DNA of 59,993 nucleotides from Thermoproteota archaeon (GTDB taxonomy: Archaea > Thermoproteota > Nitrososphaeria_A > Caldarchaeales > Calditenuaceae). The notes under the pieces were generated by a model that was not told the DNA's origin, did no database searches, and worked only from the letters and a program-made list of their open reading frames with translations. The stretch lies in contig JAUQPZ010000001.1 in NCBI GenBank assembly GCA_030550155.1, forward strand, positions 64,974-124,966, in the 5' to 3' direction. Each line of letters opens with the position of its first letter. Position 1 is the first letter of the stretch. Made by a program: the position numbers and the translations under genes. Of the stretch, positions 37,375-41,285 are shown in pieces.

Positions 37375-37578
37375 TTGTTAAGGGTTAAGGTGGGTAAGTC
37401 CCTCGGAGTTTGGGATTGGTCAATAACAAACTGCGACGCCTGCTTACTGGAGATCGAGGACCCATCAGAGACCGTCAAGTGCAACTATTGCGGGGCCACA
37501 TTTCACCCAGACTGCTACAAGAATCTCAAGAACACGAAGTCCTCATGCCCTAAGTGCAGGGTGAGCCTTTATGAGTGA
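37375..37578 (+). CDS. Small RING/PHD-like (C4HC3) zinc-finger protein
   Basis: 67 aa; C-x2-C-x12-C-x2-C-x4-H-x2-C-x10-C-x2-C (NCDACLLEIEDPSETVKCNYCGATFHPDCYKNLKNTKSSCPKCR). Confidence 0.75.
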   Translation: MLRVKVGKSLGVWDWSITNCDACLLEIEDPSETVKCNYCGATFHPDCYKNLKNTKSSCPKCRVSLYE

Positions 37579-37948
37579 AAAAAATGTCCAGAATCCCGAT
37601 GAATCAGACGAGGAGGAAAGCATCGAAATAAACCAAATAGAGACACCTAGAGGCCGTGTCCCCGAGTTCGAAAGCACGTTCCGAGCCCTTGAAAAGATTT
37701 CTGCACGCCTACTGGAGCAGGACGAGAAGATCGAGAAAGTCGCGACACAGCTGACCAGCAGACATCTACCCACTGTTCAGGTGAAAGAGATTCAAGACGC
37801 AATACAGGCACTAAGGTCCGACATAGCTGAGCTGGAAAAAAGGCTAGAATACATGGAGGACATACTGGGCGAGATCCAGGAGAGACTAAACCTGCTTGAC
37901 TATCTTGCCGATATAGTCGAGCGCTACTTAAAGACTCAGGAAAGCTAG
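37571..37948 (+). CDS. Coiled-coil protein, acidic N-terminus
   Basis: 125 aa; start overlaps the RING-like ORF by 8 nt; heptad-rich (EIQDAIQALRSDIAELEKRLEYMEDILGEIQERL). Confidence 0.7.
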   Translation: MSEKNVQNPDESDEEESIEINQIETPRGRVPEFESTFRALEKISARLLEQDEKIEKVATQLTSRHLPTVQVKEIQDAIQALRSDIAELEKRLEYMEDILGEIQERLNLLDYLADIVERYLKTQES

Positions 37949-38793
37949 GTCGTTCCGCGCAGTATCCCGCCCCTCAGCTCCTGCTTAATCCTCTCAAGCT
38001 CCTTCTTCTCAGCCTCGAGCCTAGATATATCCTGAAGAAGCTGATTCCTTCTCTTCTCCAGCCTCCTAATCTCGTCGGTCAACTGGGAGAACTGCCTGTT
38101 ATACTCCTCGGTCATGGTCTTCGCGGCCTCAAGCTTCTCTATCTCCTCCCTCTTACGCTCCTCAAGCCTGACAAGCCTCTCCAGCCTAGCCTCCCTCACC
38201 TTAAACCTCCTATCCAACTCCTTCATAATCCTCTCAATGCCCTCTGTAGCAGACTGAAGAGCCGAGATATACGCGGCCTGCAACTCCTTCACCTTCTCCT
38301 CCAGAAAGGCCTTACGCTCCTCAAGCTCCGCCACCTCCCTCTCATAGTTCTTGAGCGACCTGTCCCTCTCATCGATCTCCTGCTTGAGCGTTATCAACTC
38401 CTGCTTCAGAGTCTCCAGATTGCTTCTCTCCTGCTCCAGCTTCTCCCTCTCATGGACTATCGCCATCCTCGCCTTCTCTAGGACATCAACCTGCTCCCTC
38501 TGAAACTCGAGAATCCTTGTAAGCTCCTCCTGTTGCTCTTGGAAGATCGCCAGATATGATGAGAGCGACTTTAACGTGTTTACACCGTCCAGAAACTCTC
38601 TTATCATGTATTCGGGCTGAGAGGTTGCTAAGGCGTCAAGCTTAGAGACTATCTCTTGAACGGCCGCTCTTAATTGACCCGCGACGTTGCCGGAGACCAG
38701 CGCCTCGAGGTTCTGGAGCTGAATGGTTATAGCCCTTAAATTCTGGGATATTGCCTCGAGCTCCTCTGAGCGACGGCCGATTATTGAGCCCAT
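37945..38793 (-). CDS. Long coiled-coil protein
   Basis: 282 aa, continuous E/K/R/L-rich heptads; convergent with the 125-aa coiled-coil gene (4-nt overlap). Confidence 0.75.
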   Translation of the reverse strand: MGSIIGRRSEELEAISQNLRAITIQLQNLEALVSGNVAGQLRAAVQEIVSKLDALATSQPEYMIREFLDGVNTLKSLSSYLAIFQEQQEELTRILEFQREQVDVLEKARMAIVHEREKLEQERSNLETLKQELITLKQEIDERDRSLKNYEREVAELEERKAFLEEKVKELQAAYISALQSATEGIERIMKELDRRFKVREARLERLVRLEERKREEIEKLEAAKTMTEEYNRQFSQLTDEIRRLEKRRNQLLQDISRLEAEKKELERIKQELRGGILRGTT

Positions 38794-38912: not shown

Positions 38913-39689
38913 ATGATCGCTCATGTGGGCGAGGCCCTAGCTAGGTTTAGCAGAATTGGCGCCCTGATCTCTCTACTCGGAGCTACTCACGCCCTCAGCC
39001 TCATTCTGAACTGGTTTTCAATCAATTACGACAACGTGGGCAGGAGCCTAATTACAGGTTATACTTTCATGGAGCCTCTCATGCTGTCTCTCAGCGCGGG
39101 TGCTGCGGCAGGCGTTGTCGGAGTATTGTCCTCAAACCTCAGGGACATATCTAAGATCAGGGTTGTGACTCCCTTGGTCTCTTTCACGTCTGCAGGGCTT
39201 GCTCTCCTCTCACCGCTCTACACATATCTTGTAAAGCTGCCCAGCTTTCAGAACCTAAATTACGTGCCTGAGACAGGGCTATTCGCCGCCCTATTCACCG
39301 GCATAGCCATAGCAGGGGCTTCTGTCCTAGCCTTAATCGCGGGGCTGAGAACTAAAGTAACCCAATATATTGGCCCTCAGGCTCGATGGGGGCCGACGGG
39401 AGCTGAGGAATCATTCGTAGAGATTCAGGAGCCGATAGCAGAGCCGTCTCTCAGAACTGTGGAGGAGAGTTTTCAGAGACCCACAGAGGTGGTCGAGCCC
39501 GCCGCCCCCCGGAGAGAAGAGAGAGCGCCGCTTGGGGAGACTCAGTGCCTAATCTGCGGCGATATAGTTTCAGGGTCGGATTCTGTGGAGTGTAAGTCTT
39601 GTGGTGCGCTTTTCCATAAAGACTGTATGAGTGTCTGGATAGATTTAGGGAACAAGTGCCCGTCATGTGGCGCCGAGCTCCGCCTATGA
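38913..39689 (+). CDS. Multi-TM membrane protein with C-terminal RING/PHD-like zinc finger
   Basis: 258 aa; ~4 hydrophobic segments then linker and CLICGDIVSGSDSVECKSCGALFHKDCMSVWIDLGNKCPSCGAEL. Confidence 0.78.
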   Translation: MIAHVGEALARFSRIGALISLLGATHALSLILNWFSINYDNVGRSLITGYTFMEPLMLSLSAGAAAGVVGVLSSNLRDISKIRVVTPLVSFTSAGLALLSPLYTYLVKLPSFQNLNYVPETGLFAALFTGIAIAGASVLALIAGLRTKVTQYIGPQARWGPTGAEESFVEIQEPIAEPSLRTVEESFQRPTEVVEPAAPRREERAPLGETQCLICGDIVSGSDSVECKSCGALFHKDCMSVWIDLGNKCPSCGAELRL

Positions 39690-39779: not shown

Positions 39780-41285
39780 ATGCCTGAGCAGCTCACCGAC
39801 AAAATAGTCCAGCTGGCTCTCAGGAGAGGGTTCTTTAACCCTACCGCCGAGATTTACAGAGCGCCAGCCGGCTTCTATGACCTCGGGCCCCTAGGCGCCC
39901 TAGTGAAATCAAACCTCGTGAGCTTTTGGATTGATGAGTTCGTGAGGAGGGAGACATCATACGAGGTCTTCCTCATAGACGGTTCACTAATCCTGCCATA
40001 CGACGTGTTGAAGGCGTCGGGACACGTGGATAAATTTAGCGACCCCAAGGCGTCATGCAAAAGCTGCGGCAGGATCTACAGGGTTGACCAGCTCATAGAG
40101 GAGGCCTTGGGGCTGAAAGTTGAGGGGAAGAGCCTGGAAGAGCTGGAACAGATTGTTAAAACGAGAGGCGTCAGGTGTCCTCACTGCAGAGGAGAGCTAT
40201 CAGATTTTAGGGAGCACCACCTCATGTTCAAGCTCTCTGTCGGTGGAGCTGAAGAGTCGGCCTTCTTGAGGCCCGAGACAGCGCAGAACATATTCCTCAA
40301 TTTTAAGAGAATTACATATGGCATGAGGGCTAAACTTCCCTTCGGCGTGGCTCAGGTGGGTAAATCTTTCCGGAACGAGATAGCGCCGAGGCAGTCTGTG
40401 ATAAGGCTTAGAGAGTTCAGCCAGATGGAGATTGAGCTATTCTTCGCGCCAAACGATGAGAGGGGGCCGAGGGGGTTTGAGGAGGTTGCCGACACGGAGA
40501 TACGTATTCTGACACGGGAGGAGCAGCTGCACGGTGGAGAGGAGCCCATAGAGTTGAAGGCCGGAGACGCTGTAGCCGAGGGAATCGTGCCGAACAGATT
40601 TTTGGCCTATTATCTCGCAAAAGAGGTTAGATTCTTCAAGCTCCTTGGAATTCCACCCGAGAACACTAGGTTTAGACACCTTCTACCCGAAGAGACCCCC
40701 CACTACTCAGGCGGAAACTTCGATCTCGAGGTGAAATTCTCTTTTGGCTGGAAGGAGATCGTTGGAAACGCTTATCGCAGAGACTATGACCTTACAGTTC
40801 ACTCTAGGGGCTCAGGAGAGGACCTCTCAATCGACAACAACGGCGTCAAGATGATACCGCACGTGGTTGAGCCCTCATTCGGAGTAGAGAGAATAATCTA
40901 CGCGATCCTTGAACACTCGTATCGTGAGGGAGAGAGGGACTGGCCGCTCCTGAAGTTGCCGAGAATTATCTCGCCGATAAAGGCAGCAATCTTCCCTCTT
41001 CTTGATAGAGAGAATCTCACATCTAAGGCCCTAGACGTCTACTACGCGTTAAAGAGGTCTAGAAAGGCGATCCCCGTGTATTACGATGACCGCGGCTCGA
41101 TTGGCAGAAGATATGCAAGGGCCGACGAAGTGGGCGTAAACCTCTGCATCACGATCGACTACCAGACACTCCAAGACGACACCGTAACTGTCAGGGACAG
41201 AGACACTGCCGAGCAGGCCAGAGTAAAGATCAGCGATCTTGAGGACCTGATATACAACGACATGTTCAGGCTGGAAGGAGTGTAG
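39780..41285 (+). CDS. glyS: Glycyl-tRNA synthetase
   Basis: 501 aa class II aaRS; RRGFFNPTAEIYRAPAGFYDLGPLGALVKSN, FLRPETAQNIFLNFKRI, VGKSFRNEIAPRQSVIRLREFSQMEIE. Confidence 0.96.
   Translation: MPEQLTDKIVQLALRRGFFNPTAEIYRAPAGFYDLGPLGALVKSNLVSFWIDEFVRRETSYEVFLIDGSLILPYDVLKASGHVDKFSDPKASCKSCGRIYRVDQLIEEALGLKVEGKSLEELEQIVKTRGVRCPHCRGELSDFREHHLMFKLSVGGAEESAFLRPETAQNIFLNFKRITYGMRAKLPFGVAQVGKSFRNEIAPRQSVIRLREFSQMEIELFFAPNDERGPRGFEEVADTEIRILTREEQLHGGEEPIELKAGDAVAEGIVPNRFLAYYLAKEVRFFKLLGIPPENTRFRHLLPEETPHYSGGNFDLEVKFSFGWKEIVGNAYRRDYDLTVHSRGSGEDLSIDNNGVKMIPHVVEPSFGVERIIYAILEHSYREGERDWPLLKLPRIISPIKAAIFPLLDRENLTSKALDVYYALKRSRKAIPVYYDDRGSIGRRYARADEVGVNLCITIDYQTLQDDTVTVRDRDTAEQARVKISDLEDLIYNDMFRLEGV

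Follow-up and report, generated by a model that had tools for sequence, protein, structure and literature searches.

A gene that we call memRING, found in a hot-spring archaeon of the Calditenuaceae, is likely to encode a membrane-anchored RING E3 ligase that recruits the ubiquitin-conjugating enzyme (E2) of an archaeal, eukaryote-like ubiquitin system. It lies in a stretch of 59,993 nucleotides (the window) from contig JAUQPZ010000001.1 of assembly GCA_030550155.1 (positions 64,974 to 124,966 of the forward strand), whose closest relatives with a name are metagenome-assembled genomes of Candidatus Calditenuaceae. This family belongs to the order Caldarchaeales, previously called Aigarchaeota (PMC10547907). 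In the model that we propose, four N-terminal transmembrane (TM) helices would hold the protein in the cytoplasmic membrane, with a flexible linker keeping the RING on the cytosolic side. The RING would bind ubiquitin-loaded E2 via I214, W242 and P250, and ubiquitin would be passed to membrane proteins or membrane-associated substrates, whose selection may fall to the TM domain or to partners, for example the neighbouring coiled-coil proteins ccA and ccB. The model draws on a Pfam RING assignment, profile and fold matches to E2-active ligases, the invariance of I214 and P250, the presence of E2 throughout the order, gene clustering and a predicted cytosolic RING.

The memRING open reading frame (ORF) begins with a start codon that is kept in its relatives. 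Its C-terminal finger reads C212-x2-C215-x11-C227-x2-C230-x4-H235-x2-C238-x10-C249-x2-C252, and the finger of a soluble small RING finger protein (srfp) encoded upstream at 37375 is equal to it apart from its second spacer, which is x12. A six-frame scan of the window finds the pattern at exactly two places, and 200 codon-shuffled windows did not contain it at all. Both fingers belong to the Pfam family zf-RING_2, with 34.5 bits for memRING and 32.9 bits for srfp against a curated cut-off of 27.3. The same profile is matched by 24/24 memRING orthologues, across which all eight zinc ligands are invariant at identities as low as 25%. The finger also carries the E2-contact signature of a hydrophobic residue before C2, a Trp after C6 and a Pro after C7; in the orthologue alignment I214 and P250 are invariant and W242 is kept in at least 90% of sequences. 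A basic linchpin residue after C8 is common in active RINGs without being universal. The window copy has Gly253 at this position, which weakens any claim of strong catalysis and leaves the RING assignment untouched.

In a sequence-profile comparison with the PDB, the best matches of the finger were Arkadia (8.6e-12), ZNRF3, RNF165, RNF38, gp78 and HRD1, all of them E2-active RING-H2 ligases. An AlphaFold2 (AF2) model of the finger alone, with a predicted local distance difference test score (pLDDT) of 83, adopts a RING fold. Searched with Foldseek, this model matched the gp78 RING first, followed by RING1B, APIP6, EL5 and RNF165; RNF165 bound to E2~Ub was among the matches, and RING1B-BMI1 was among the top ones. 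Other identities for the finger did not hold. As a PHD finger it scored 16.3 bits against a Pfam cut-off of 24, and PHD structures first appeared at rank 34 of the fold matches. A zinc ribbon is rejected by the best profile and fold matches being RING E3s, and for an anti-phage reading PADLOC returned no match to memRING. An initial annotation of this DNA had described about four TM segments, a linker and a RING-like C-terminal finger differing by one residue in one spacer from that at 37375; the ORF, the hydropathy, the finger positions and the matches above agree with it on each point.

Four hydrophobic segments were found in 30/35 of the sequences examined, the window memRING among them, and the positive-inside rule placed both termini inside in 30/30 of these. 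The basic residues thus favour internal N and C termini, and the RING is predicted to be cytosolic rather than extracytoplasmic. Within and beside the first TM segment, R11, H26 and W34 are invariant in the orthologue alignment. A profile of the TM domain had no match in the PDB, and no credible Pfam family was found for it.

The initial annotation had also likened memRING to the MARCH/Doa10 ligases of the RINGv class, and this kinship is not supported. Both have the C4HC3 ligand order and both are membrane proteins; however, in MARCH/Doa10 the RING is N-terminal and precedes the TM segments, whilst in memRING it is C-terminal. The spacing disagrees as well (C-x2-C-x4-H in memRING, C-x-C-x7-H in RINGv). 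The RINGv profile had no match at E <= 1 in the genome of the window, and its cut-off was passed by no membrane RING of the Caldarchaeales. The architecture is instead of the Hrd1/gp78/RNF26 type, with an N-terminal TM bundle, a linker and a C-terminal RING-H2-like finger that is cytosolic in those proteins and predicted to be so in memRING; the gp78 RING is its top fold match, and both HRD1 and gp78 were recovered by profile. The likeness does not extend to shared TM homology: the four helices of memRING have no detectable homology to those of gp78 or Hrd1 (Synoviolin), and the archaeal protein is without extra domains such as CUE.

A memRING protein search gave matches in 42/44 Caldarchaeales genomes, representing all 14 genera, with the match in G040 being to the srfp finger only; the TM-domain profile was found in 41/44. 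For the other three (G012, G036 and G040) we reject a true absence, as their contigs end where the gene is expected, beside E2, ccB or srfp. Among 354 other Thermoproteota the TM domain was not found, bar one marginal, stop-broken hit. Ubiquitin E2 is present in 44/44 Caldarchaeales genomes, and ubiquitin was found in all seven that were tested. Of the 44 genomes, 36 have two zf-RING_2 fingers above the cut-off, seven have a single one and one has none; no genome has more than two. In the two-finger genomes the fingers belong to a short srfp ORF and to a membrane protein, so the pairing of a membrane RING with a soluble finger, proposed from the window alone, recurs across the order.

The two fingers were further proposed to be paralogous, which is plausible and only partly shown. 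In a finger tree a single branch (93/76) divides them into two groups, so that any duplication would predate the order; with only 46 columns, the tree separates the groups and cannot root or date such a duplication.

Outside the order, fingers of the zf-RING_2 type are rare (10/354 genomes even at E <= 0.001), and no ubiquitin was found in four finger-bearing Thermoproteota genomes. Two genomes of another Thermoproteota family (f12) encode an unrelated membrane protein whose C terminus carries a RING-like finger (L130:8219-9253 in G079 and L131:7808-8536 in G051), and no ubiquitin was found in either. RING-like fingers in genomes of this kind would suit the idea that the memRING finger is a structural zinc module with no part in ubiquitylation, standing near the ubiquitin genes by chance; we regard this as very improbable given the conserved clustering with ubiquitin, E2, E1 and JAMM in three families, the strict pairing of the two RINGs and the invariant E2-contact signature.

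In those three families (f2-f4), memRING lies 1-2 kb from srfp in a cluster with JAMM, ubiquitin, E2 and E1. The gene order is ccC and JAMM on the minus strand, ubiquitin, E2, E1, srfp and ccA on the plus strand, ccB on the minus strand, then memRING and glycyl-tRNA synthetase (GlyRS) on the plus strand. In some genomes ccC lies at another place or was not detected, and ccA is under the search threshold. In the Calditenuaceae, ubiquitin, E2 and E1 are located elsewhere, which in the genome of the window is another contig (G000:C32, L050); JAMM accompanies the relocated genes in three genomes (G000, G001 and G006). The remaining group of srfp, ccA, ccB, memRING and GlyRS is kept together in most Calditenuaceae genera, including that of the window (Table 1). 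Genus g3 differs in that srfp, ccA and ccB are split from memRING and GlyRS, leaving srfp and memRING ~550 kb apart. The conserved ccA and ccB, found between the two RING genes in the window and with srfp in genus g3, are candidate ubiquitin-system adaptors; neither could be assigned to a protein family.

Table 1. Features of the memRING locus; positions are those of the window
Feature	Position	Strand	Remarks
srfp, soluble small RING finger protein	37375..37578	+	Orthologue of the Caldiarchaeum E3; Ala, Leu and Arg at the equivalents of I30, W58 and R69
ccA, acidic coiled-coil protein	37571..37948	+	Overlaps the srfp stop; conserved neighbour
ccB, coiled-coil protein	37945..38793	-	Conserved neighbour; divergent from memRING, with 119 bp between the two
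memRING, membrane-anchored RING protein (putative E3)	38913..39689	+	258 residues, ATG start; from ORF call, Pfam and orthologues
TM1, residues 15-33	38955..39011	+	N terminus predicted inside (R11, R14)
TM2, residues 56-74	39078..39134	+	From hydropathy/charge analysis
TM3, residues 84-102	39162..39218	+	Preceded by a basic, predicted cytosolic loop (R77, K81, R83)
TM4, residues 124-142	39282..39338	+	From hydropathy/charge analysis
Linker, residues 150-210	39360..39542	+	Variable, Pro/Glu-rich, predicted cytosolic; from alignment and AF2 (pLDDT <50)
RING finger, C212-C252	39546..39668	+	E2-contact signature I214, W242, P250; Gly253 at the linchpin position
GlyRS, glycyl-tRNA synthetase	39780..41285	+	Conserved neighbour downstream of memRING

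Two further observations concern ubiquitin itself in the Calditenuaceae. Firstly, the protein stops right at GG (L050:10089-10325, L067:7378-7614, L136:8524-8760 and L137:8949-9215). This is so despite an adjacent JAMM protease in G000, G001 and G006, whilst the Caldiarchaeum precursor has nine extra residues. Secondly, genus g3 carries a second ubiquitin-like cluster (L142:1095-3869 in G003 and L141:3232-4531 in G002), in which one ORF encodes a ubiquitin-like domain at its N terminus, ending VGG, joined to an E2-like domain, with a JAMM gene after it. G003 also has a short ThiF E1 upstream; a Prok-RING-like finger (L142:6076-6396) and pilin-like proteins are near. The cluster recalls Bil-type operons, for which PADLOC shows weak BilD similarity only.

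The srfp type of protein is an experimentally shown E3 in Caldiarchaeum, and Hennell James et al. found that C. subterraneum srfp requires I30, W58 and R69 with E2 (PMC5654768). In G014, a genome from families f2-f4, the srfp numbered from its start codon has I30, W58 and R69 exactly as published, and nine residues follow the GG of the ubiquitin; this genome thus fits the C. subterraneum data. The Caldiarchaeum srfp shares with memRING the RING type, the gene cluster and the I/W/P signature positions; it differs in being soluble and ~75 residues long, in having no TM domain and in the presence of the linchpin Arg. We read the equivalent positions in every srfp/memRING pair. In srfp from outside the Calditenuaceae, I/V, W and R/K are retained (with one Gly). 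In all sampled Calditenuaceae, I30 of srfp is replaced by A, V or S and W58 by L, with R/K kept at the R69 position. Across the pairs, the Ile of memRING is invariant, its Trp is kept except for Tyr in Caldiarchaeum, and at its third position family f4 and genus g7 have K/R, with G, N or Q elsewhere. All sampled Calditenuaceae memRING proteins have I, W and Gly. The RING-facing loop 7 of E2 reads W-Y/H-P/A-N in 5/5 Calditenuaceae (L050, L067, L068, L136 and L137) and mostly W-S-P-S/T outside the family, a change that parallels those in srfp.

Since Calditenuaceae srfp is without two of the contacts that its Caldiarchaeum counterpart cannot do without, memRING is the likelier of the two to recruit E2 in this family and is probably its main E2-recruiting RING. 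As a tentative extension, we suggest a prokaryotic ubiquitin-ligation pathway seated in the membrane, in which the recruiting role passed from srfp to memRING, together with the E2-loop change and the loss of operon linkage, so that ubiquitylation became mainly membrane-directed and the two RINGs possibly a complementary pair.

Several points weigh against an active membrane ligase. All Calditenuaceae memRING proteins and that of Caldiarchaeum have Gly at the linchpin, and some others have Asn or Gln; this non-basic residue puts the catalytic strength in doubt, and the protein may recruit rather than activate. With Gly it may activate E2~Ub itself or need a partner. The Foldseek matches, at a probability of 1.00, have E-values of about 0.01-0.02, which are weak because the finger domain has only ~50 residues. 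Full-length AF2 (from six close rows) gave four long helices and a better-modelled finger at a mean pLDDT of 50.6, a quality too low for searching the TM bundle by fold. The protein is known here from sequence and prediction, and its topology from charge and hydropathy.

The need for a partner is taken furthest by a scheme in which the two RINGs are the halves of one Calditenuaceae ligase, memRING giving E2 binding and a membrane address and srfp acting as heterodimer partner. In pairs of the RING1B-BMI1 or BRCA1-BARD1 type, only one RING binds the E2. The complementary residue states of srfp and memRING in one family, the S104 to N change of E2 loop 7 in 5/5 of the same family, the one-to-one retention of the pair and the RING1B-BMI1 fold match would all suit such a division. 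However, the linchpin normally resides in the RING that touches the E2, which makes complementation in trans an unusual mechanism. The srfp, memRING and E2-loop changes also fall on one stem and thus count as a single event rather than as independent replicates, and the two genes are far apart in genus g3. We consider this scheme rather doubtful. Less probable again, and in our view unlikely, is that memRING serves without catalysis, as a membrane scaffold or receptor which tethers E2 or the ubiquitin machinery and regulates ligation driven by srfp. A linchpin that is non-basic in many lineages, a variable linker and a Caldiarchaeum memRING with Tyr for Trp beside a fully competent srfp are consistent with it, whereas family f4 keeps I, W and K/R intact, needless for a mere scaffold. 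That memRING is itself the membrane-anchored E3 is the reading that we favour.

A 'second E3 protein', called 'small', was noted beside the C. subterraneum ubiquitin operon by Fuchs et al. in 2018 (PMC6043591). It is almost certainly the Caldiarchaeum memRING orthologue, because the genome contains two zf-RING_2 fingers and no more; its membrane domain, family and conservation are not described in the accessible sections of that paper. In the corresponding parts of two other studies, Grau-Bove et al. gave an aigarchaeote a count of several zf-RING_2 genes (PMC4327156) and Hua et al. listed only E3-like proteins (PMC6053391), and no membrane domain on such a RING is mentioned in the available portions of the three. 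Four things appear to be new: the membrane anchoring, the occurrence throughout this order and only there, the strict set of two RINGs, and the complementary loss seen in the Calditenuaceae.

With an in vitro reconstitution of the Caldiarchaeum system already achieved, the proposed ligase activity of memRING is directly testable. If it is confirmed, a minimal archaeal ubiquitin system would contain a one-gene membrane RING strictly paired with a soluble RING. To our knowledge, membrane-bound RING ligases that ubiquitylate membrane proteins are regarded as a eukaryotic trait tied to endoplasmic-reticulum-associated degradation and endomembranes. A membrane RING in an archaeal ubiquitin system hints that the ubiquitin marking of membrane proteins is older than eukaryotes, and the split between soluble and membrane ligases would then either have preceded eukaryotes or have arisen a second time.
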